Shown here piece after piece: positions 2-15,379 of a DNA stretch of 17,268 nucleotides; within the stretch, counting starts at the first letter, position 1, and each line of letters begins with the position of its first letter. The notes below the pieces were generated by a model that did no database searches, was not told the DNA's origin, and was given only the letters and a program-made list of their open reading frames with translations. The DNA comes from Deltaproteobacteria bacterium RIFOXYA12_FULL_61_11 (GTDB lineage Bacteria; Bdellovibrionota_F; JAHFAK01; YA12-FULL-61-11): the NCBI GenBank assembly GCA_001799195.1, contig MGSU01000048.1, positions 1-17,268 of the forward strand, given 5' to 3'. A program made the translations under genes and the position numbers.

Positions 2-325
2 CTTTTCTTGACCTTTCTGCTGGAAGGCCCCTTCCTTTTGCCGCTCCGGCTCGCGAAAAACGCATGGAAACGCCGGGCAGAACTCGCTGCCGACGCTTTT
101 GCCGAAAAAATCTCCGGGGCTGGCGCGGAACTGGCGAATCTACACCTTGCGCTGACCAGGGATGGTCTTTTTCATCCGACTCCTCACCCCGCACTGGTGC
201 TGTTGGAGTACGAACACCCCCCGCCGCTCGAGCGCGAAGCAGCACTGCGGTCGCAATTGACCTTGCCCTTGTCTTCGGGCGATGATTACATGGTAATTCC
301 ACCGCTCTTCGAAGATAAACTATGA
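2..325 (+). CDS. M48 family (Ste24/CAAX protease-like) zinc metalloprotease, C-terminal part only
   Basis: The reading frame is open to the left window edge, so only about the last 107 residues are visible. A hydrophobic stretch (LFLTFLLEGPFLLPLRL) is followed by RAELAADAFAEKI, which matches the E-x-x-A-D-A-F-A segment of Ste24-type M48 proteases. The Glu there is the third zinc ligand. Further on, PTPHP and YEHPPPLERE fit the family's conserved PHP...YSHPPLLER ending. Family knowledge: these are integral membrane zinc endopeptidases. The HEXXH motif would lie upstream, outside the window, so activity cannot be judged. The stop codon overlaps the next gene's start as ATGA, which implies co-translation with the PaaK-like gene. 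The family call rests on motif recognition alone. Confidence 0.66.
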   Translation, partial: LFLTFLLEGPFLLPLRLAKNAWKRRAELAADAFAEKISGAGAELANLHLALTRDGLFHPTPHPALVLLEYEHPPPLEREAALRSQLTLPLSSGDDYMVIPPLFEDKL

Positions 326-1635
326 GCCTCCGGAAAGGGTGGTACTTCTCCGGTTCACTGCTCCGATGGCCTGCCGGACCTACCCCCGACAAGTCCCTTC
401 CCGCCCTACGTCGCGTGGTCGAGCGCGCTCACCGCGACAATGCCTGGTACCGGCGACACTTCGCAACGGCGGGTTTCCATCCGTCGATGCTCGAAAGCCT
501 CGCAGATTTCGAGCGCGTTCCCCTGTTGCACCGCCACGACTTTGATGCCAGTCCTGAGGCACTCTACCTCAGGCGGCCCAGACCTCCGCACGAGGTCGTG
601 CTGACGACCTCAGGGACCCTGGGTGAGCCCTTGCGTGTCATCCACTCCCGAGAGGCGGTGGACCGCAGCACAGCCTGCTTCGCCCGTTGGCTGTGGAAAC
701 TCGGTTTCCACCCACCGTTGCGTCTGGCCATGTACCGGACCCCGGGAGAGTTGGCGACCGCCACCCGCTTCTGGTACCACCGTCTCGGACTGATGAAGAA
801 ACTCTGGATCGATGCTGCGGCCGAACCCGCTGTGCAGTTGTCGGAACTACGGCGTTTCAAACCTGACCTGCTCTTTGCCTATCCCTATGCTCTTCTCTGG
901 ATCGTCACGCACCTCCTGGCTCCCGATGAGCCCCTAGGCTTTGCACCGCAAGCAGTCGTGTCGTTCGGAGAATACCTCTCGCCCCAAATTCGCACGATAC
1001 TTGAAGGGAGATTGCAGGTGCCAATCTATAATTGGTATGCCAGCACCGAATTCTGGGGACTGGCGGGACAATGCCGGGAGTGTGGTCACTTGCACCTTGA
1101 ACCAGAAACGACGTATCTCGAGGTACTCCACGAAGGTCGCCCCGTGATCGGAAAACGCGGAACGGTGGTTTGTACCAGTCTACACAATGACCTCATGCCG
1201 CTAATACGTTACGTGGTCGGCGATGAGGCCCGCTTGGAACACACTGTCTGTGCCTGTGGCTATCGCGGCCCTTCGCTAGTCGAGGTTGGAGGTTACCGCA
1301 GCAAGAAGAAGACGGCCCTCGCCCATTGGGAAAAGATCCTTAGTAGTATCGAGGAGACGCTGATAGGCCAGGGTAACCTTGCTGCCGTGCAACTCGAGGT
1401 ACAGATTGAGACCGGTGAACTCGTAGTGCGCTATGTGCGCGGTGCACGTTTCGAACCCCAAGATCCCCATCGCCTCGAACAATTAGTGTACAATTTGGGT
1501 ATTCCAGTAAAACTGTTCCTGCTCGAAGTCGGACGTATCGCCCCTTTGGCGAGCGGCAAGCAGGCACATCTCCTTATCAGGGATGAAGAGCCTCACAATT
1601 CTTCGCGCGGGAAACTCGGGAAACTCTCGAGATGA
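322..1635 (+). CDS. PaaK/CapK-type adenylate-forming enzyme (phenylacetate-CoA ligase-like), copy 1
   Basis: This 437-residue protein belongs to the AMP-forming ligase superfamily, in the PaaK/CapK branch that activates carboxylic (often aryl) acids as acyl-adenylates. Visible motifs are the P-loop TTSGTLGEP (residues 95-103), YNWYASTEFWG (236-246, with the Glu that binds ATP/Mg in this family) and RYVVGD (296-301, the ribose-binding Asp). Cys pairs C251/C254 and C310/C312 resemble the metal-binding knuckle seen in some PaaK-like proteins. The start is the ATG overlapping the previous stop. The C-terminal tail (EEPHNSSRGKLGKLSR) abuts an IS remnant, so the last residues may be altered. It is a clear paralogue of the gene at 4830, sharing MSLR...W at the N terminus and the AGFHP and FARWLW/FGRWLW blocks. 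The true substrate is unknown. Confidence 0.85.
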   Translation: MSLRKGWYFSGSLLRWPAGPTPDKSLPALRRVVERAHRDNAWYRRHFATAGFHPSMLESLADFERVPLLHRHDFDASPEALYLRRPRPPHEVVLTTSGTLGEPLRVIHSREAVDRSTACFARWLWKLGFHPPLRLAMYRTPGELATATRFWYHRLGLMKKLWIDAAAEPAVQLSELRRFKPDLLFAYPYALLWIVTHLLAPDEPLGFAPQAVVSFGEYLSPQIRTILEGRLQVPIYNWYASTEFWGLAGQCRECGHLHLEPETTYLEVLHEGRPVIGKRGTVVCTSLHNDLMPLIRYVVGDEARLEHTVCACGYRGPSLVEVGGYRSKKKTALAHWEKILSSIEETLIGQGNLAAVQLEVQIETGELVVRYVRGARFEPQDPHRLEQLVYNLGIPVKLFLLEVGRIAPLASGKQAHLLIRDEEPHNSSRGKLGKLSR

Positions 1636-1642
1636 GCGGCAC

Positions 1643-1930
1643 TACCGAGTAGGATACGGGTCCGTCCTGCCCCGAACCCAGCACCAAGGTCCAGAACAAG
1701 GCCCCGCTCTTGTCCTTACGGTCCCGCTGGACGGCCCAGTCTGCTTTGCAAATTCTTTCAAATCCTTTGCCGAAAACAGCTTGCTCAGCGCTTCCTGGAT
1801 TGCTATTCTCGGCTGCTTGGCTATCGCGTTCCTCCTCCGTTTGGGTTTTCCAACCATGTTGGAATCAAACGCTGATGGCCTTTTCAAGCTCTTTTCGCAG
1901 CTTCGGAGGGGGCTTCAGGAAATACGAATG
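1643..1930 (-). mobile_element. Decayed N-terminal fragment of an IS4-type (DDE) transposase
   Basis: Read on the minus strand from about 1887, one frame gives a start region ending IQEALSKLFSAKDLKEFAKQTG. After a one-base frame change near 1735 it continues AVQRDRKDKSGALFWTLVLG. Together these match the usual N terminus of IS4-type transposases (LF...L..LA..TGFVQR.RK....FFWTLVLGFG). Only about 80 codons remain and the catalytic DDE part is absent. The fragment ends against the tail of the PaaK-like gene at 1635. An inverted relative lies at 14901-15180. The frameshift and truncation make it a fossil. The exact IS group cannot be set from so little sequence. Confidence 0.68.
1711..1930 (+). 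repeat. Left arm of a ~220-base imperfect inverted repeat
   Basis: This stretch pairs with the reverse complement of 14901-15120. Both arms are 220 bases long and about three-quarters identical by eye, with a few small indels. The 24 bases at 1860-1883 are identical to the reverse complement of 14948-14971. The arms correspond to the start region of the IS4-type transposase fossils. Similarity stops sharply at the inner end, just after ACGAATG. Confidence 0.85.
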
Positions 1931-1941
1931 TCCATGCGCGG

Positions 1942-2136
1942 GCCTTTGAAGAATGCGAAGGGCTGGCCTGGGCAGAGAAGGTGGCGAGAGCCGCGAGGAG
2001 GAAGGCCAGGATGTCCCCCTACTTCTTCTTCAATGCCTAGCTACCACCATTATTGCAAGTACTTGCCGTACGACCCGATTACCTGGTACGGAAATGGCGG
2101 CTTCATCCGGTGCTCCACCCAGAGTTCTAGTACTGA
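1942..2136 (+). pseudogene. 3' stump of a fourth B12-type radical SAM gene
   Basis: Translating from 1942 gives AFEECEGLAWAEKVARAARR and then RMSPYFFFNA, an in-frame TAG at about 2038, and later YLVRKWRLHPVLHPEF. This aligns without gaps to the C terminus of the radical SAM protein encoded at 9153-10703 (FDEIEGMSWEERVAKN, then RLAAVFHYYT, then YQLKKMLLRPYYNLEF). The first TAG replaces a Tyr codon and a second TAG (2128-2130) a Leu codon. The final TGA (2134-2136) falls exactly where the paralogue stops. That TGA overlaps the ATG of the UbiA-like gene (TGATG), a typical translational-coupling junction. The upstream part of the gene is missing and the fossil transposase sequence begins within about a dozen bases. 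What I see is the alignment and the stops; the loss through IS insertion or deletion is inferred. Confidence 0.72.
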
Positions 2137-3017
2137 TGTCTCCTCTTGAGAACATGCTGATTCGCACGTGGAAACACTTCTTCTCGCTGTACCGGCTCGA
2201 CTTCGTGCTGCGCGACCAAGGTCTGGTCGTAGTCGCCATCCTAGCGGCACGAAAACCTGACTCGGTGCTGAACGGCCTGGTTGTACTGATCATGCATATC
2301 CTTGTTCAAATGCACTCTTTTTCGGCCAATGACCTGCAGGACCACCTGGCTTGGGACGAAGCCAATGCTCTCGGCCATTTTCACGCGCGTTACGGTCTCA
2401 TCGTGAGTCAAATACTCGTCCACCTCCCCCTGCTACCTCTTGCCGTACTAGCACTAATCAGCCCCCATCCCGCCCATTTCCTTCTGTTGCTCTACATCCT
2501 CCTCTTTGCCGGGTACCAGATGCAACCGTTCCGTTGGAAACACCACTACGTCCCGTCGTTGTTCATCAACGCGCTGTGCCTCGGCACCATTCCCTTCCTC
2601 CACCCCTACTTGGTGCTTCGAAACGACCTTGACCTGGCCGGAGCGCTCTTCTCCGTGCTCTTCTTCTGTTATCTCGCCTTCCACGAGGTCGTCCATCAGC
2701 TCGCCCATTGGGGGGAGGACGACATCGTGTCGTTACCCTCGGCGCTGGGCCTGCGCGGTGCCGGCCGAACCTCCTTGGCCTTTCTCCTCGCAGCCCTCGG
2801 CTTTGCCATCTCCGGTCTACTCCTTGTTCCAGGACACCGCTGGGCCTTCTTCGTCGCCATCGGCTTCACGCTCTTGCGGCTCCTCCTCGTTGCGCGGGCA
2901 GATTGGAGTAAAGCCTACTTCGCAGGACTGCGCGCCTCTTGGCACAAGAGCTACAGTCTGCACGAGGGAGGGTGTTATGTAGTTCTCTATTTATTCGGCA
3001 GTATCTTCCAGATGTGA
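2136..3017 (+). CDS. UbiA-like membrane prenyltransferase
   Basis: This 293-residue, very hydrophobic protein has several likely transmembrane helices. The first Asp-rich motif, SANDLQDHLAWDEAN (N65, D66, D69, D74), corresponds to the UbiA NDxxDxxxD signature that binds prenyl diphosphate through Mg. YQMQPFRWKHH (127-137) matches the family's Y.(M/P)P.R.K segment. The second motif is divergent: HWGEDDIVSLPSALG (191-205) in place of the usual (Y/R)D..D...G..TLP...G. UbiA enzymes transfer an isoprenoid chain to an aromatic or other acceptor in the membrane. The ATG at 2136 was chosen because it overlaps the stop of the radical SAM stump; an alternative is ATG 2154, and the in-frame ATG at 1953 would run through fossil DNA. 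It converges on the mfnE-like gene after a 33-base gap. The substrate is unknown. Confidence 0.72.
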   Translation: MSPLENMLIRTWKHFFSLYRLDFVLRDQGLVVVAILAARKPDSVLNGLVVLIMHILVQMHSFSANDLQDHLAWDEANALGHFHARYGLIVSQILVHLPLLPLAVLALISPHPAHFLLLLYILLFAGYQMQPFRWKHHYVPSLFINALCLGTIPFLHPYLVLRNDLDLAGALFSVLFFCYLAFHEVVHQLAHWGEDDIVSLPSALGLRGAGRTSLAFLLAALGFAISGLLLVPGHRWAFFVAIGFTLLRLLLVARADWSKAYFAGLRASWHKSYSLHEGGCYVVLYLFGSIFQM

Positions 3018-4829: not shown

Positions 4830-6221
4830 ATGAGCCTACGATTTCCTTGGTATATATCTCGTTCCTTTCTACGCGTGGGGCAAAAAGATCGGGCAGTTTC
4901 AACCTTGCCGAGACTGAAGGCCATTGTGACTCATGCTTATACACACAGCCCTTTCTACAAGCAACACTTCGACGCTGCGGGATTCCATCCGAGGCACCTC
5001 CGCACGCTTGGAGATGTCCAGTATATCCCCCTGCTGACCAGAGATGACCTGGTAGCACATTACGACCAAATAGTAACCCAACCTGCTTCCAAGAAGAGTA
5101 ACTCCGTAACCTTCACCTCCGCCGGCACAATTGGCCAGAAGATACCCATCACCTATGAATCGAAAGGGTTGGAACTTTATGCCGCTGTCTTCGGGCGTTG
5201 GCTCTGGTCCGTCGGTTTTCGGCCTGGTGAGCGTATTCAATGCTATACCTACGCTCCTACTGCCTCCACGGAAGCAATGGATACTCCTGCAATCAAAGCA
5301 CCACCATCTCAACCGACACCGCCGGCCTGGCGTGCTTTGGATGTGTGCAGAGATTACCGTTCAACCATGCCGACCCGGTTCTACCACCGCATGGGTATGG
5401 TCAAACGCGGTTGGTTCGACCAAAGTTTTCCCGCAGAGTTACAGCTTCAGCAAATTCGATCCTTTCAACCCGATTGGTTGATGGGTATGCCTTCGACAAT
5501 ACGTCGCATTGCAGCCCTCATGCGACAACGTGGCGAACAGCCTGGTTTTGCCGCACGCGGTATCGTGCTCGGTGGCGAGTTGCTCACCGAGACAACTCGA
5601 GAACTGATCGAAAGCTCGTTCCACTGCCGAGTCTACAACCGTTACTCATGTGTGGAACTATGGGCCATGGCCTATGAATGCCGCCACGGCAACCTGCATG
5701 TAGAGGACGATTTAGTTCATCTCGAGGTAATCAAAGACGGTTTACCGGTATTTCAAGAACACGGTCAACTAGTCTGCACCAGCTTGATTCATCGTCATCT
5801 TCCGCTCATTCGCTATCAGAACGGCGATGAGGGTAAACTCAGCTCTCAATCCTGTTCTTGTGGAAACACCGCCCTGGTATTGTCGGAAATTGGTGATTAT
5901 CGCGTGCGCGAAAATTCGTTGGCTCGTCTCTGGTCACCTGTGGTTACCCTTCTTGAAAACAGCTTCCAGCGTAATTTTGTCCTCGGTGAATTCCAACTTC
6001 GACTCGCTGCTGACGGTCACGGTGCCTCCCTGCACTACGAACGTGGTCCTCGGTTCACCGCGAGCACACCGCAAGCTTTACGTCAGGCCCTCGCTGACTT
6101 TGCACCGGAATTGAACATCGAAATGGTGGAAAATGCCCGTTTCGATACCGAGATGAGTTTCAAATTCTCCCCCCTCACTGTCGTCAACCCACCGAACTGT
6201 TCGAGAATGCTGTTGCATTGA
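4830..6221 (+). CDS. PaaK/CapK-type adenylate-forming enzyme, divergent copy 2
   Basis: This 463-residue paralogue of the gene at 322 shares MSLR..WY.S.S at the start, AGFHP (50-54), the GRWLW block (122-126), RFYHRMGMVK (183-192), VCTSL (315-319) and the RY..GDE block (328-334). Several signature positions differ. The P-loop is TSAGTIGQK (96-104) rather than TSGTTG.P. The catalytic block is YNRYSCVELWA (269-279), keeping the Glu but with Ser-Cys-Val before it. CSCG (342-345) and C284 with H286 take the place of the other copy's paired cysteines. An extra stretch of about 32 residues (roughly 143-178), rich in Pro, Thr and Ala, is inserted relative to copy 1. The ribosome binding site is the G-run AAGGGGGG (4819-4826). 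A radical SAM gene follows 66 bases downstream, likely in one operon. It may be an altered-specificity ligase or an acyltransferase-like relative. Confidence 0.8.
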   Translation: MSLRFPWYISRSFLRVGQKDRAVSTLPRLKAIVTHAYTHSPFYKQHFDAAGFHPRHLRTLGDVQYIPLLTRDDLVAHYDQIVTQPASKKSNSVTFTSAGTIGQKIPITYESKGLELYAAVFGRWLWSVGFRPGERIQCYTYAPTASTEAMDTPAIKAPPSQPTPPAWRALDVCRDYRSTMPTRFYHRMGMVKRGWFDQSFPAELQLQQIRSFQPDWLMGMPSTIRRIAALMRQRGEQPGFAARGIVLGGELLTETTRELIESSFHCRVYNRYSCVELWAMAYECRHGNLHVEDDLVHLEVIKDGLPVFQEHGQLVCTSLIHRHLPLIRYQNGDEGKLSSQSCSCGNTALVLSEIGDYRVRENSLARLWSPVVTLLENSFQRNFVLGEFQLRLAADGHGASLHYERGPRFTASTPQALRQALADFAPELNIEMVENARFDTEMSFKFSPLTVVNPPNCSRMLLH

Positions 6222-6287: not shown

Positions 6288-7790
6288 ATGGATCTCCTGC
6301 TAATCACCCCTCCGGCCCCAAGGTTCACCCGTGAGTCCTTTGTCCATCTCGGCCCTGCCTTGTTGAAAAGCCATCTTTCGAGTCAGGGAAAGCAGGTAAA
6401 ACTGATCGATCTTACGGCCAGAATTCGAGCCAGGATACCGTGGGTTGATCCATACGACCATGCAGTGCTGTTGCTCAATGATAGCAAGGATTTATCCGCC
6501 TATCTGCATGGATTTCACCGAGAAGAGATCGATCGGGCGGCGGGAAGATTGTGGGAACTCATTCCTGCACGAGACAGAACAGCCCGAGTTATCGGCTTTT
6601 CGGTGTTTTCTCGACATCTTCTAAAACCCGCTTTGGCTATGGCTGCCTGGTTACAACGCCATGACAAGAAAAAGAAGATCGTCTTCGGAGGTTGGCTCTT
6701 CAGCGACCCCCTTTATCATGACATAACAGCATTTCCTTGGGCTAACCACGTTGTATCGGGTCCTGGGGAAGATACCGTGGAAAAGCTGACCAATGGCGAA
6801 CCAGTCTCACAACGCATCATCAGTGAACCATTGCCGCTTAAAACATTGCCCTGTCCCGTTTTTGAAAACGAGGACTTGTTGTGGTATCGCCGGGTCAGTA
6901 TCCGAAGAATGCTACTATTGCCATATTTACTCACCCGAGGCTGTCGCCACCAATGTCAATTTTGTCCCTCCTCCAGAGCTGTTCCGGAGTTCATGCCCAT
7001 CGAAAAAGCCTCGACAGAACTATTAGCACTCCAAGAAACGTATGCACCCGATGCTTTTTTCTTCTCTGAAGTTAACCTCAATAACCAAACAATGTACCTG
7101 AGTGAACTTTGCCAATGCATGTTGGATTCTGGCCTGAGAACCCCTTGGGGTGGCTTTGCTTCACTCATCGGATTGAGCCCTACACTCATTCGTTTGATGG
7201 CCAAGGCAGGGTGTAGATATTTACAGATAGGCATCGAGAGCGGCAGCAAGAGAATTCGGACACGTTTTAACATCTTCAAAGTACCTAACCTACCAGAAGT
7301 CGAATCTATCTTGGCCAACTTACGCGCTGCAGGGATTCGGCTCAACCTTTACTTCATGCACGGGTTTCCCCATGAAAACGAAAGAGAATTTGCCCAATCA
7401 GTAGATTGGCTCCATCGGCTCAGCCGGTATGCAGCAACCTGTGTGGTCAGCATTTTCAGTGTAGAACCAGGGACGCCGATCTTTCTGCATCCAGAAGAAT
7501 TCGGAATCAGACTGCACCCACCTATTCACCGCAACGATAGCCTGGCTTTTCTTGAGCCTATGTTCTCGCTTCCAAAGACACATATGGTCACTATTCCCTT
7601 CGATGAAATCAACGGCATGAACTGGGCCGAAAAATTCTCCCAGAATCTTCGTCGACAACAAAGCCTGCAGAGGTTCCTGACCAATGAGGTCTATGCACGG
7701 CACCTTCTTCGGATCTCTCCCTGTAGTCCATTATACGCATTGAAAAAAAAGTGGTTCCGGCCGTACTTTCACTACGATGTATACCTGTAA
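6288..7790 (+). CDS. B12-binding-type radical SAM protein, paralogue 1
   Basis: This 500-residue protein has two recognisable parts. Residues 1-165 resemble the Rossmann-like cobalamin-binding domain: LLLITPP at the start, HLGPALLKSHL, then VIGFSVFSRH (101-110) and VFGGWLFSD (132-140), corresponding to the SxL/GG parts of the B12 motif. The DxHxxG histidine is not visible; the equivalent place reads DLTARIR. The radical SAM core has C-x3-C-x2-C in TRGCRHQCQFC (C219, C223, C226), plus GIESGS (315-320) and YFMHGFPHE. A C-terminal block holds IPFDEINGMNW (436-446) and a Lys-rich tail. Such enzymes often methylate unreactive carbons or rearrange rings. It follows the second PaaK-like gene by 66 bases. 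The ribosome binding site is weak. Substrate and cobalamin use are unproven. Confidence 0.84.
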   Translation: MDLLLITPPAPRFTRESFVHLGPALLKSHLSSQGKQVKLIDLTARIRARIPWVDPYDHAVLLLNDSKDLSAYLHGFHREEIDRAAGRLWELIPARDRTARVIGFSVFSRHLLKPALAMAAWLQRHDKKKKIVFGGWLFSDPLYHDITAFPWANHVVSGPGEDTVEKLTNGEPVSQRIISEPLPLKTLPCPVFENEDLLWYRRVSIRRMLLLPYLLTRGCRHQCQFCPSSRAVPEFMPIEKASTELLALQETYAPDAFFFSEVNLNNQTMYLSELCQCMLDSGLRTPWGGFASLIGLSPTLIRLMAKAGCRYLQIGIESGSKRIRTRFNIFKVPNLPEVESILANLRAAGIRLNLYFMHGFPHENEREFAQSVDWLHRLSRYAATCVVSIFSVEPGTPIFLHPEEFGIRLHPPIHRNDSLAFLEPMFSLPKTHMVTIPFDEINGMNWAEKFSQNLRRQQSLQRFLTNEVYARHLLRISPCSPLYALKKKWFRPYFHYDVYL

Positions 7791-9152: not shown

Positions 9153-10703
9153 ATGCTACGCAGCATTTGCCTTCAACACAAACCATACAGGGCAAATAGC
9201 CGACCGGATCTTCTCCTGGTGACCGCTCCATCTCCCGATATTACCACCGATTCTTTTCCTCATCTGGGCCCCGCTTACCTAAAAAGTCATCTCGAGAGCC
9301 TGGGGTATTGTATACAAACCGTTAATTTCACCTCAAGGGTACGTTCCCACATCCCTTGGCTCAACCCCTATCGAAAAGCTTTGGCTCAAATCGTGAGTCG
9401 CGAGCCCTTGAAACGCTATCTATTGGGGGAGCGTGTAGAAAGTGTCGATAGCGCAGCAGGGGTTCTATGGACCCTGCTCGGTAAACGTCCGGAAGCCAAA
9501 GTGTATGGTTTTTCAGTTCTTTCTCAATATTCGTTGCATGCTACTCTGGCTATGGCAGCCTGGCTCAAACGCAGACAACCACGGCAACGGTTGATCATTG
9601 GAGGTTGTCTTTTTTCTGATCCCAGGTATCGTGACCTGCTTGCGCTTCCTTGGCTCGACCATGTCGTATCCGGGCCAGGAATGCATGTTCTACCTCTCCT
9701 TCTTGATCGGTCTGATGCTCCACGTTGGATTTCTTCAGTAGATGAACCCCTTGCTTCCAATCCCCTTCCCAGTTTCGAACGGGAGGATCTTCAGGCATTT
9801 AGAAAAAGTGGTGTCAGAAGCAAATTGATTCTCCCCTATCAAGTCACAAGAGGTTGCCGCTATCAATGCCGTTACTGCACGGAAGCAAACACTCTTCCCC
9901 AGCATCTGCCGATCGACAGAGTTGTCACTGATCTCGGTATTCTCCAGACAACGTATAAACCCGATGCTTTCTTCCTTACTGGAGTCAATCTTAACAATGA
10001 TCCATTATTTCTCCAGGGATTGTGCGACACCCTGAGCAGCAGAAAACCGGCCCTTCGCTTCGGGTGTCCAGTTTCAGCAAGGGGACTCGATGCTAATCTT
10101 ATCAAGTCCCTGGCCGCAGCCGGTTGCAAGTTTGTCTTGATCGGCATTGAAACAGGTAGTCCGCGCATCCGCACGTTGTGCCGAATAAAAAAAACACCTT
10201 CCTTACTCGTAATGGAAAGAACCTTGCGCTATCTTCGGCAGGAAAATATCAACGCACATCTGTATTTCATGCACGGTTTTCCTGGAGAACTGGACAGCGA
10301 TTTTGAGCAAACCCTCACCGCTGCATTCCGTCTTGGTTGGCATGCCGCAAACGGTACCGTGCATGCTTTTGGTCTCATGACCGGCGCACCTGCTTTCAAA
10401 GAAGCTGCAGAACTGGGGATAAAACCTCGACACAACGATAATTCTGCTGACCCGCTTTCTTGTCTCGACCCCCTTGATCCGACAAGACCAGATTATCTCA
10501 TATCAATACCTTTTGATGAAATCGAGGGGATGTCTTGGGAGGAACGAGTTGCCAAGAATAAAAACAACCAAGACAGGTTGGCAGCGGTCTTTCACTATTA
10601 TACTTATCCTCATCAACTCTGGCGCATGGCTGCATACGGCCCGTTATACCAGTTAAAAAAGATGCTTCTGAGACCGTACTACAATCTCGAGTTTCTTTTA
10701 TGA
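9153..10703 (+). CDS. B12-binding-type radical SAM protein, paralogue 2
   Basis: This 516-residue protein has the same architecture as paralogue 1. The cobalamin-like domain starts at PDLLLVTAPSPD and has HLGPAYLKSHL, YGFSVLSQYS and IIGGCLFSD. The radical SAM cluster motif is TRGCRYQCRYC (C235, C239, C242), with GIETGSPRIR and YFMHGFPGE later. The C-terminal block is IPFDEIEGMSWEERV, ending LYQLKKMLLRPYYNLEF. The B12 histidine motif is again absent (NFTSRVR at the equivalent position). The first ~18 residues (MLRSICLQHKPYRANSRP) are extra relative to the paralogues. No other in-frame ATG gives the shorter start and the ribosome binding site is weak, so the start is uncertain. It is closest to paralogue 3, which follows 133 bases downstream. 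Confidence 0.84.
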   Translation: MLRSICLQHKPYRANSRPDLLLVTAPSPDITTDSFPHLGPAYLKSHLESLGYCIQTVNFTSRVRSHIPWLNPYRKALAQIVSREPLKRYLLGERVESVDSAAGVLWTLLGKRPEAKVYGFSVLSQYSLHATLAMAAWLKRRQPRQRLIIGGCLFSDPRYRDLLALPWLDHVVSGPGMHVLPLLLDRSDAPRWISSVDEPLASNPLPSFEREDLQAFRKSGVRSKLILPYQVTRGCRYQCRYCTEANTLPQHLPIDRVVTDLGILQTTYKPDAFFLTGVNLNNDPLFLQGLCDTLSSRKPALRFGCPVSARGLDANLIKSLAAAGCKFVLIGIETGSPRIRTLCRIKKTPSLLVMERTLRYLRQENINAHLYFMHGFPGELDSDFEQTLTAAFRLGWHAANGTVHAFGLMTGAPAFKEAAELGIKPRHNDNSADPLSCLDPLDPTRPDYLISIPFDEIEGMSWEERVAKNKNNQDRLAAVFHYYTYPHQLWRMAAYGPLYQLKKMLLRPYYNLEFLL

Positions 10704-10820: not shown

Positions 10821-10869
10821 TTTCTTTTTCATATGAATGCTATTTACACCAACCATTAGAATAACTTAT

Positions 10870-12372
10870 ATGAAACACGACCTTCTACTTCTGACCGCCC
10901 CTGTCCCTGATGGTATACCCGATTGTTTTCCTCATTTAGGGCCTGCATTTCTCAAAAGCCACCTTGAAAACTTGGGTTTTTCAATTCGAACAATCAACAT
11001 GACCACAATGATTCGATCGCATTATCCATGGTTCAATCCCCACAGGAAGGCGGTATCCCAACTCATGGCGATCGAACCCTTGAAAAAATATCTTCGTGGG
11101 GAAAATGTCGAGAACGTTGATAAAGCAGCCGGGATATTGTGGAACCTCCTTGGTGAAAATATTTCCGCCAAAGTCTTTGGTTTTTCAGTGCTAACACAAT
11201 ATTCTTTGCCAATTGCGCTTGCAATGGCTTCGTGGCTAAAACGTAGGCAGTGCAAACAAAGAGTAATATTCGGGGGAAGTGTCTTTCTCGAACCACAGTT
11301 TCTTTGCCTCCATAGGCTACCTTGGATCGATCACCTCGTTGTTGGTCCTGGTATTCATATCTTACCGATTTTACTCGTAAAAGCAGATGCACCACGTTTG
11401 ATAACAATGCCTGATGAGCCTCTACCCCTCAATTTAATACCTCGATTTGACCTGTTGGATTTAATGACTTCAAGAAACAGTAGCGCAAGAAGAAAACTGA
11501 TTCTCCCCTACCAACTCACCAAGGGGTGTCACTTTCAATGTCAATATTGTACAAATGTCGGCATCCATCCTGAGAGTATGCCGGTGGGAAAAGCCATTTC
11601 CGATCTTCATTATCTCCAGAGAACCTATCGGCCTGACAATATATATCTGACAGATGTAAACCTGAACAATGATACAAGGTATCTTGATGATTTTTGTAAT
11701 AGATTAATCAAGAATAATCTTTCTCTTCATTTTGGTGGATCGCTGTCAGTAAAAGGACTGGATCAACATAGCATCGGATTATTGGCTACTGCTGGTTGCA
11801 GATATGCCTATATAGGTATTGAAACCGGAAGTCCGAGAATACGGAAATTGTTCCGAATTACGAAAATTCCATCTTCACCAAAGCTTGAAATGATTTTGCG
11901 CCAATTGTATGCAGCGGGAATCAATAATCATCTGTATTTCATGCACAGTTTTCCAGGAGAAAGCGACAGAGACTTTGCATTAACACTTACGCTAGCACGA
12001 CGACTAAGTTGGTACGCCGCTAACGGAACCGTATATCCATTTGCGCTCAAGTATGGTGCTCCAGCTTTTCACAGAACCGTTGAGTTAGGAATAATACCTC
12101 GTCACCTAGAACAAAGCGCTGATGCACTCTCTTGCTTGGACCCCTGTGATCCGAAGAATCCGATGATGATTATGTCACATCCCTACGATGAAATCGATGG
12201 ATTGTCTTGGGAGGAAAAACTCCACGAAAGCGCATTTCGGCAGAAAAGGTTGGCTGAAATATTTCATTATATTTCCTATCCTCGTCGAGTAATCAACATG
12301 CTCCCAATCGATCCATTGTACCAACTCAAGAAGGTCATTAAACCATACTTTTTCATGGACATCATGTTATAA
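10870..12372 (+). CDS. B12-binding-type radical SAM protein, paralogue 3
   Basis: This is 500 residues from ATG 10870, the start that lines up with paralogue 1 (MKHDLLLLTAPVPD against MDLLLITPPAP). ATG 10837 would add 11 residues, and neither start has a good ribosome binding site. The cobalamin-like domain has HLGPAFLKSHL, FGFSVLTQYS and IFGGSVFLE, and lacks the DxHxxG histidine. The cluster motif is TKGCHFQCQYC (C220, C224, C227), followed by GIETGSPRIR and YFMHSFPGE. The C-terminal block is HPYDEIDGLSWEEKL and the tail LYQLKKVIKPYF. It is nearer to paralogue 2 than to paralogue 1, suggesting a local duplication. This gene has the lowest GC content in the window (24 of 60 at 10921-10980), so it may have arrived from another genome. 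It converges on the glycosyltransferase gene (46-base gap). Confidence 0.84.
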   Translation: MKHDLLLLTAPVPDGIPDCFPHLGPAFLKSHLENLGFSIRTINMTTMIRSHYPWFNPHRKAVSQLMAIEPLKKYLRGENVENVDKAAGILWNLLGENISAKVFGFSVLTQYSLPIALAMASWLKRRQCKQRVIFGGSVFLEPQFLCLHRLPWIDHLVVGPGIHILPILLVKADAPRLITMPDEPLPLNLIPRFDLLDLMTSRNSSARRKLILPYQLTKGCHFQCQYCTNVGIHPESMPVGKAISDLHYLQRTYRPDNIYLTDVNLNNDTRYLDDFCNRLIKNNLSLHFGGSLSVKGLDQHSIGLLATAGCRYAYIGIETGSPRIRKLFRITKIPSSPKLEMILRQLYAAGINNHLYFMHSFPGESDRDFALTLTLARRLSWYAANGTVYPFALKYGAPAFHRTVELGIIPRHLEQSADALSCLDPCDPKNPMMIMSHPYDEIDGLSWEEKLHESAFRQKRLAEIFHYISYPRRVINMLPIDPLYQLKKVIKPYFFMDIML

Positions 12373-12418: not shown

Positions 12419-14884
12419 TCAGGGGTGAATATTGAGTTCACGCAGCAATCGACCACATAATATGCCGGTAGAGGTATTTTTCCCCAGGCGTAGGCATTCT
12501 TCTATCTGTTCGATGGTTTTTCTCGGTGAACCTTGCTGTTCGTGAACGAGGCTCAGGCTGTAGTGGAGATCTTGTCGCAGTCGATCCACACGTTCTTCGT
12601 GTAGTACCCTTTCGAGGAGTTGCGACAATCCAGGAAGTACCGTTTGAGCGGGAAGTTCATCAAGCCTCGAAACCAGTCGTTGCCCTAACATGAGACGAAA
12701 GGCATGGTTTCGCCAGGGTAACACTTCGGGATTCAATCGTTCCAACAACCACAGTAATTCGTTCAAGCCAAGTTTTGAAAATAATTTATCGAGATAACAT
12801 CCAGAATACAACTTCTCGGGAAGGATCACCATTTGCGCTTGCCGGCTGGAATTTTTATGGAGGTCGACTAGAAGATCTTGAACATCGATAATCAGACACA
12901 CGGAAATGCCATTTCGAGAAAAAAATTTCATCTCAATGTTTTCATGATACATGTGTGTACACCCAGCGTCCATCTGAGATCCAGATTGGTGGTTCAAACC
13001 AAGTGTCACATAGATCAGTGGTTTGCGGTCATGATCATCGAGTTCATATCCTGGTCTAGTAGTGCCTAAATGTGACAGGAGAAGATAACGAGCCGATTCA
13101 AGAATGTTAGACGGTTCGTTATCAACAACAAAGGGAACATCTAACGCGATAAGATATCTCGATAATCGCTCGAAACTTGCAGCACCCATATTAAAAGGAC
13201 TGACAAGGGGTGTATCAGTAGTCTCAGTAGTATAGTGTCCAGTGCCTGAAAGGTTATCAGGCGAAACATCGGGATCAATGGCGGAAGAAAGGGTAATTTC
13301 AACGATATCTGGGCAGAATTCACCGATGTTTGTAAAGGTACGGAGTATACGAAAATCGAAACTGGAGAACATCCGGTGCAGACAGATGTCAATCACTCGG
13401 AGATCCCCTGCCTGGTCAGCGAAGAGTCCCGGGGGAAGAAAGAGCAACAACTGCTTGGATGCGGTTGTAATCGATGGCCAAGTACCATCTGGAAGGCGAT
13501 CTGGCAGAAACACCTCCAGGCCAGGTTGGCGGAGACCATAAAGATAGCGATGATACCGTGGACTAATAGCACCATTATCGCTACAATCGAGCATGATGAT
13601 GGCAGGTGAGGAGGTCAACTCCAGGTTCGGAACGCAGGATTGGTCCAGGGGTTCGGGACGGTGGGGATAATATCCAAGCATATTCCGATCAAACTGATCC
13701 CGTGGTATTGCAGATGCGAGTCGCAGAGGATGACCGAAGGAAGCATCCCAACCGATGGTGACATTGAACAAGACGATCAGGGTGCTAAAAATTACAGTCA
13801 TGGACCGTGGAAGCTTCTCGAGGGAGGTCGCTGTTATTACAGCAACCAATGGTAATACAGGCTGAAGGTAATTCAGATTTTTCAAGCCAATACAAGTCAG
13901 GAAGAACGCCACAGAGCAGATTAATCCAAAGAGATGAAGTATCCCTTCTACATGCGGGCGCCCCCCCGACCATAGACCCAAAAGCATGATCAACACGCTT
14001 GGGAAAAGAATCGCCTTGAGCAGGTAGTAAGGGTAGAACATGAAAAATACCCAGAGTGGGGTACCTTCGGTGCGCAACATGATGGTGTAGGGGTTTGCCA
14101 GGAAAAGGTAGTACCATGGAGCATGAATATATCTTTGAACCAGTTCGAGAAATTGCACCATCCATGATGGCAGAAGCGCTGGCCAGTACCATTGTATAGT
14201 CCAGACCACAAGGAAACCGTAACCGCTTATAATGAGCATTCCCAATAGAAAAAATACCCAATACTTACGGGCTGCACGCTTTGCCCCCCAGAATAATGCT
14301 GCCACTATGTAGAGCGGAGCAGTACTCTTGAGGCCAATACCGACCAAGAAGAACAAGGGAAGGATGATCACTGCCCAAGGACCGAAAACCCGAGTGGGAT
14401 GATGCCAGATTACGTAAACCACACCGAGGAACCAGACAGTTAGCGGCAAATCGATGGTATAGTACCTTGTCAAACCGATGAAAGCTGGGAAACTCAGCAG
14501 TAATGCAACGCTCAGAAATCGGTCAGTCAGTCCTAGTCGTTTGGAAAAGGAGACAAGGAGAAGACAGATGAGCAGAACAATCACGAGGTTTAAAGCCCAG
14601 GGGGAAAAAAAGGATCGGCCACCAATGGCCAGAAAGGGAAGGGTCAAGATATAGGTCAGAGGGCGGTGTACCGGGTCGGGCCCGATCAGCAAGTTGTACA
14701 GTTTGGACAAGGATGGCGCATGAACGAAATCGAGCACGCTCGTTTCGTAATCCATCAGGCCAGCAAGATGGGGCAAATTATCGTGACAGGACAGATCGTT
14801 AAAAGTAGAATGCCAACATACCTGCAATATGACCAAATTCATCGCGCAGGCAAGCAAGAGAAGAAGAGGATACCGCAAGAACAT
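12419..14884 (-). CDS. Large membrane glycosyltransferase, GT39/GT83 (PMT/ArnT-like)
   Basis: This 821-residue protein starts with a hydrophobic helix (FLRYPLLLLLACAMNLVILQ), then a loop with Asp residues (STFNDLSCHDNLPH, about 26-39) where this superfamily keeps its catalytic Asp. RPLTYILTLPFLAIGG and RYYTIDLPLTVWFLG (140-154) match conserved blocks of the dolichyl-phosphate-mannose/ArnT-like transferases. About ten hydrophobic segments extend to roughly residue 400. The remaining ~400 residues are mostly soluble, ending in a helical, TPR-like region (HYSLSLVHEQQGSPRKTIEQIEECLRL, given here in part). Such enzymes use a polyprenyl-phosphate sugar to glycosylate protein or lipid outside the membrane. 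The reading frame extends 34 codons upstream to 14986, but that part is transposase-fossil DNA. ATG 14884, preceded by GGAG, is the likelier start and lies 17 bases from the repeat boundary. Confidence 0.74.
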   Translation of the reverse strand: MFLRYPLLLLLACAMNLVILQVCWHSTFNDLSCHDNLPHLAGLMDYETSVLDFVHAPSLSKLYNLLIGPDPVHRPLTYILTLPFLAIGGRSFFSPWALNLVIVLLICLLLVSFSKRLGLTDRFLSVALLLSFPAFIGLTRYYTIDLPLTVWFLGVVYVIWHHPTRVFGPWAVIILPLFFLVGIGLKSTAPLYIVAALFWGAKRAARKYWVFFLLGMLIISGYGFLVVWTIQWYWPALLPSWMVQFLELVQRYIHAPWYYLFLANPYTIMLRTEGTPLWVFFMFYPYYLLKAILFPSVLIMLLGLWSGGRPHVEGILHLFGLICSVAFFLTCIGLKNLNYLQPVLPLVAVITATSLEKLPRSMTVIFSTLIVLFNVTIGWDASFGHPLRLASAIPRDQFDRNMLGYYPHRPEPLDQSCVPNLELTSSPAIIMLDCSDNGAISPRYHRYLYGLRQPGLEVFLPDRLPDGTWPSITTASKQLLLFLPPGLFADQAGDLRVIDICLHRMFSSFDFRILRTFTNIGEFCPDIVEITLSSAIDPDVSPDNLSGTGHYTTETTDTPLVSPFNMGAASFERLSRYLIALDVPFVVDNEPSNILESARYLLLSHLGTTRPGYELDDHDRKPLIYVTLGLNHQSGSQMDAGCTHMYHENIEMKFFSRNGISVCLIIDVQDLLVDLHKNSSRQAQMVILPEKLYSGCYLDKLFSKLGLNELLWLLERLNPEVLPWRNHAFRLMLGQRLVSRLDELPAQTVLPGLSQLLERVLHEERVDRLRQDLHYSLSLVHEQQGSPRKTIEQIEECLRLGKNTSTGILCGRLLRELNIHP

Positions 14885-14900
14885 GAGTCTCCATCTCTTG

Positions 14901-15120
14901 CATTCGTGCTTCCTCAGGACCCCTCCAAAGCTATAGAAAGAGCTTGGAAAGGCCATCAGCGTTTGATTCCATCGTGGCTGGGACACCCAACGAAGGAGGA
15001 ACGCGATGGCGCCCGATGCCCGAGATTAGCGATCCAAGAAGAGCTCAGCAACTTCTTTTCACAAAGTATTTGAACGGACTTGCAAAGAAGACAGCTCTGT
15101 CCGGAGGGACCGCAAGGTCA
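14901..15120 (-). repeat. Right arm of the ~220-base imperfect inverted repeat
   Basis: Reverse-complement partner of 1711-1930. The inner boundary is at ACGAATG in both arms. The two arms enclose about 13 kb, including the mfn genes, all three radical SAM genes and the glycosyltransferase. Confidence 0.85.
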
Positions 15121-15180
15121 AGGTAGGCGATGCGCCAGAGTTCGAGCAGGTGCTCGCGGGATCTCGGGGTTTCCACAGGG
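14901..15180 (+). mobile_element. Second decayed N-terminal fragment of an IS4-type transposase
   Basis: Plus-strand frames give AIQEELSNFF, then after a frame change FTKYLNGLAKKT, then after another VRRDRKVKVGDAPEFEQVLAG. These match the IS4-type N terminus (LA..TGFVQR.RK), as in the left fossil, but with different frame breaks. The fossil points outward (rightward), opposite to the left copy. The similarity fades by about 15180. From there to the GH13 gene at 15380, about 200 bases, I see no coding pattern. The whole gap from 14885 to 15379 holds no intact gene. Confidence 0.6.
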
Positions 15181-15379
15181 ATGCTCGTACCACCCATCAG
15201 CCGGCGTGTATACCAGGTCTAAGCAACCCGAGCAACGCAGGGGGAGGAAATCCTTCCTGCACCAGGAATCGGCAAGGTAGCTCAGAGAGAATGGGTAGCG
15301 ACAATGGTATCAAGGATATTGGACAATCAGGCCTCATCGTGGTAGGGGCACTACGTGCATGCTACCAGGAGGGACGGAT

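Follow-up and report, generated by a model that had tools for sequence, protein, structure and literature searches.

The locus

The stretch of DNA that we analysed, hereafter the window, is 17,268 nucleotides long. It carries genes for two phenylacetate-CoA-ligase-like enzymes (PaaK1 and PaaK2), three radical SAM proteins (R1, R2, and R3) and a UbiA-like membrane protein. Between PaaK1 and the UbiA-like gene lie a repeat and the remnant of a fourth radical SAM gene, which we call rSAM4. The features referred to below are as follows.

322 to 1635, plus strand: PaaK1, an AMP-forming enzyme resembling phenylacetate-CoA ligase, encoded upstream of the fossil
1709 to 1930, minus strand: decayed, insertion-element-like copy of a repeat, with its conserved end at 1930; 79% identical to 14901 to 15122, in the opposite orientation
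1942 to 2136, plus strand: rSAM4 pseudogene remnant, comprising the final 64 codons of a fourth radical SAM paralogue, with its stop
2134 to 2138, plus strand: TGATG overlap, in which the last base of the fossil stop is also the first base of the UbiA-like gene's ATG
2136 to 3017, plus strand: distant UbiA-family membrane protein, an intact ORF of 293 residues and the sole UbiA match of the genome
3051 to 4467, minus strand: gene pair for an MfnE-like kinase and MfnB (4-HFC-P synthase), adjacent to the UbiA-like gene
4830 to 6221, plus strand: PaaK2, which shares 34% identity with PaaK1 and immediately precedes R1
6288 to 7790, plus strand: R1, radical SAM paralogue with a CX3CX2C motif
9153 to 10703, plus strand: R2, the radical SAM paralogue with the highest identity to the fossil, and with a predicted core like that of cobalamin-dependent radical SAM enzymes
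10837 to 12372, plus strand: R3, radical SAM paralogue with a CX3CX2C motif
14901 to 15122, plus strand: second copy of the repeat in the window, abutting the start of gene 12419-14986
contig C174 (G000:C174:94; L027:1-94): end of a third copy of the repeat; bases 4 to 94 of the contig are 86% identical to 1841 to 1930

R1, R2, and R3 are radical SAM proteins, as judged by a match to Pfam PF04055 and by their CX3CX2C motifs (CRYQCRYC, CHFQCQYC, and CRHQCQFC, respectively). A preliminary description of this DNA, made from the sequence alone, had called the family B12-type. The Pfam B12-binding domain had no match in R1–R3, but the best fold matches of the predicted R2 core were TsrM, MgmA, AprD4, and OxsB, and by sequence, too, AprD4 was the best match in the PDB. 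On the evidence of the predicted fold, B12-type appears to be a reasonable assignment.

The radical SAM fossil and its decay

Translated in the frame that opens at 1942, the fossil reads AFEECEGLAWAEKVARAARRKARMSPYFFFNA, a stop, LPPLLQVLAVRPDYLVRKWRLHPVLHPEF, a second stop, Y, and the terminal stop. Positions 1942–2133 give an ungapped alignment with the final 64 codons of both R1 and R2. R2 is the closest paralogue by identity: the ungapped alignment with its last 64 residues has 19 identities, 33 positive columns, and a BLOSUM62 score of 86, as compared with 16 identities and a score of 69 for the R1 tail, while the R3 tail required one gap. Among themselves, the intact tails of R1–R3 share 25–29 identities in 64. 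An ungapped match to roughly the last 64 codons of R2 had been claimed previously, with shuffled sequence proposed as the standard against which to judge it, and the claim withstood that comparison: in 5000 shuffles the ungapped score against the R2 tail averaged -61 (standard deviation 17) and never exceeded 8.

We also built a search profile from the C-terminal tails of R1, R2, and R3. A six-frame search of the window with this profile detected the fossil with an i-E of 4.9e-9. In the comparison with shuffles, the fossil scored 34.7 bits and the shuffles at most 7.8 bits. Leaving any one paralogue out of the profile still gave the fossil 31–32 bits, with codon and base shuffles reaching no more than 8.4 bits. 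When the profile was run against the whole 4.6-Mb genome, it matched in four places, all of them within the window, namely R1, R2, R3, and the fossil (33.8 bits, E 1.5e-7). Similarity by chance, or a leader at the N terminus of the UbiA-like protein read in another frame, is an exceedingly improbable explanation for values of this kind, which shuffles never approached; the UbiA frame does stay open back to 1953, but where it runs over the fossil it is a different reading frame from that of the fossil. The stretch thus shows significant co-linear homology to the R1–R3 family together with disabling lesions, and at the level of sequence we regard it as confirmed that it is the true decayed tail of a fourth radical SAM gene.

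The lesions can be read against the paralogues column by column. The first TAG (2038–2040) stands where both R1 and R2 have Tyr (TAT), the second (2128–2130) where R2 has Leu (CTT) and R1 has Tyr (TAC), and the terminal TGA (2134–2136) falls at the stop position of the paralogues themselves. The preliminary description was therefore correct about a TAG in place of a Tyr codon and about the expected place of the TGA, whereas its TAG in place of a Leu codon holds with respect to R2 and not R1. The fossil has retained 8 of the 19 residues that are invariant in the R1–R3 tails. Its matches to R2 number 36, 35, and 23 of 65 at the first, second, and third codon positions, respectively, and the better preservation of the first two positions indicates that the gene was still coding when most of its divergence arose.

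The 5′ seven-eighths of rSAM4, including the CX3CX2C motif, is missing, with the break at 1930/1931; we looked for this part of the gene and found none. What is left could not give a radical SAM enzyme. The internal stops are both TAG and both face a Tyr of R1, as might be seen if TAG were read as a sense codon and the stretch were still coding, but we rejected this hardly credible reading in view of the lost 5′ part, the erosion of conserved residues, and the fact that MfnB, in the same window, terminates in TAG.

The two edges of the fossil

The left boundary of the fossil coincides with the end of the repeat. The three copies of the repeat agree up to the sequence CGAATG, which ends at 1930, and then diverge into unrelated sequence; the alignment of the fossil with the paralogues begins 12 bases further on, at 1942, similarity across 1931–1941 being too weak to call. 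Several copies with a common sharp end are what would be found for an insertion sequence. Only this one end of the repeat is preserved with confidence, the other having been lost, and the inner limit (1709/15122) is less certain because another repeat takes over at 15122. This other repeat (15122–15216) abuts the first and is 95% identical to a segment of contig C96 (G000:C96:2194-2288). In contig C174, the repeat end once more lies directly before a gene, in this case one for a membrane-protein-like sequence. The listed GTG start of gene 12419-14986 (minus strand) falls inside the repeat end; translation of this gene probably begins instead at the ATG near 14884, which lies just past the repeat.

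A fossil transposase had been reported to begin within about a dozen bases upstream of the radical SAM remnant. The boundary of the repeat does lie 12 bases before 1942, and there is indeed a repeated element with a sharp common end at this place, but the minus-strand ORF of the repeat contained no recognisable transposase, having neither a Pfam match nor a plasmid match of note. We consider it likely that the repeat is a fossil transposase and that rSAM4 was truncated at the end of a mobile element. From the boundary that the repeat and the fossil share, we infer that the remainder of the gene was removed by an insertion event.

On the right, the homology continues up to the native stop of the radical SAM gene, and hence this side of the fossil is undisturbed. 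The ATG at 2136–2138 opens on the A of the fossil TGA and is in frame with the UbiA-like ORF, just as the preliminary description had stated. Coupled gene pairs usually take this form, with stop and start codons overlapping. Judging from the overlap, UbiA was probably once read by re-initiation after rSAM4, and the junction between the two genes is most likely ancestral. No convincing ribosome-binding site was seen for the UbiA-like gene, the candidate starts of which are 2136 and an ATG at 2154. We note that the start of PaaK1 is overlapped as well, by a truncated ORF lying upstream of it (ATGA at 322–325).

Might a genuine fossil instead have been brought beside UbiA by rearrangement, the TGATG being coincidental and the two genes never having formed one operon? 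The repeats, and the loss of DNA to the left of the fossil, are compatible with such a history, and no orthologous locus confirms the gene order. The right side, however, is seamless, with homology extending to the native stop and UbiA beginning on the same base, a base on which a random junction would seldom fall. Moreover, the fossil and UbiA agree in composition. For these reasons we judge a rearrangement to be improbable and favor an ancestral junction.

Reconstruction of the gene order and the pathway question

The order PaaK1–[rSAM4 fossil]–UbiA parallels the order PaaK2–R1 further downstream. A gap of 66 bases separates PaaK2 from R1 behind it, and PaaK1 is followed by the repeat and then by the rSAM4 fossil; the two ligases are homologous, 144 of their 429 aligned pairs being identical. 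Given this parallel order and the homology of the ligases, PaaK1 probably had the lost gene as its radical SAM partner, and the natural reading is that there were two ligase–radical SAM units, one of which is broken. The fossil (57% GC) has a GC3 of 0.65, which is like that of PaaK1 (0.64) and UbiA (0.71) and unlike that of R1–R3 (0.39–0.51), arguing that it is native to the PaaK1–UbiA block and is not a recent copy from R1–R3.

We propose that an operon-like unit, PaaK1–rSAM4–UbiA, once stood here as the counterpart of PaaK2–R1, and that within it the rSAM4 stop would have overlapped the UbiA start, allowing UbiA to be read by re-initiation. A mobile repeated element would have inserted in, or recombined with, rSAM4, and some 440 of its approximately 500 codons, together with most of the element, would then have been lost. 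Later, the two TAG stops would have arisen in the 64-codon stump, and about half of the residues common to all of R1–R3 would have been lost from it. We assign this account as a whole (the operon-like unit, the element-linked truncation, and the later decay) a probability of roughly 0.85.

This reconstruction of the ancestral state draws on a single genome, since no orthologous locus with an intact rSAM4 was found in the collections searched, which contain only two genomes of the phylum. Close relatives of the UbiA-like protein were found neither among genome contigs nor in 58 other genomes. Similarly, R1–R3 had no close relatives among genome contigs, viral contigs, or a 386-genome sample of the domain; plasmids yielded only four distant radical SAM matches (22–29% identity), and the single class-mate genome likewise yielded only distant radical SAM matches. 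In ten genomes with MfnB, MfnE was nearby in four, and relatives of UbiA, PaaK, or R1–R3 were near MfnB in none. A search of the literature on radical SAM and UbiA clusters turned up nothing relevant.

From their co-location and the overlap, rSAM4 and the UbiA-like protein are likely to have belonged to one pathway. The preliminary description had gone further in treating the UbiA-like protein as a prenyltransferase, which our results do not establish. Its match to Pfam UbiA (PF01040) spans most of the protein but is weak, at 23.6 bits as against a curated cut-off of 34.2. Of its Asp motifs, as read by eye, the first (NDLQDHLAWD) is mostly present and the second (HQLAHWGED) is altered. Given these motifs and a score under the cut-off, prenyl transfer is not to be assumed. 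Like the UbiA prenyltransferase family, the protein is rich in helices and contains NDxxD, but the last Asp of its first motif is shifted, and at two of the altered positions in its second region Asp is found in canonical members. Structure prediction for the protein alone was poor (pLDDT 51).

MfnE and MfnB represent the furan-forming steps of methanofuran/methylofuran synthesis (PMC8141765). The formyltransferase FTR (PF01913) was not found in the genome, which is approximately 87% complete, and the furan may be for something other than C1 transfer. A new pathway can be imagined, though we think it very doubtful, in which each PaaK-like ligase is paired with a cobalamin-type radical SAM enzyme and the UbiA-like protein, once joined to the lost rSAM4, uses an unusual diphosphate, possibly the aminomethylfuran diphosphate of MfnB/MfnE, and not a prenyl diphosphate.

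The fossil is ordinary as such, and its value is as a record of former gene neighbours. Most likely, it ties the UbiA-like gene to the PaaK1 ligase–radical SAM unit, a connection that cannot be read from the present arrangement.

Finally, we compare the locus with known systems. The predicted R2 core is most like the folds of the cobalamin-dependent enzymes TsrM, MgmA, AprD4, and OxsB, at about 16% identity. The C-terminal tail of R2, about 120 residues long, was modelled without confidence, and so structure adds nothing on the part that is kept in the fossil. The fossil itself resembles the remnants of IS-truncated pseudogenes in bacterial operons in being cut at a repeat end, in having acquired nonsense mutations later, and in being followed by an intact downstream gene. 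It differs from them in that the element is itself decayed and has no recognised transposase. An ordinary kind of event appears to have taken place within an unusual, orphan gene cluster.
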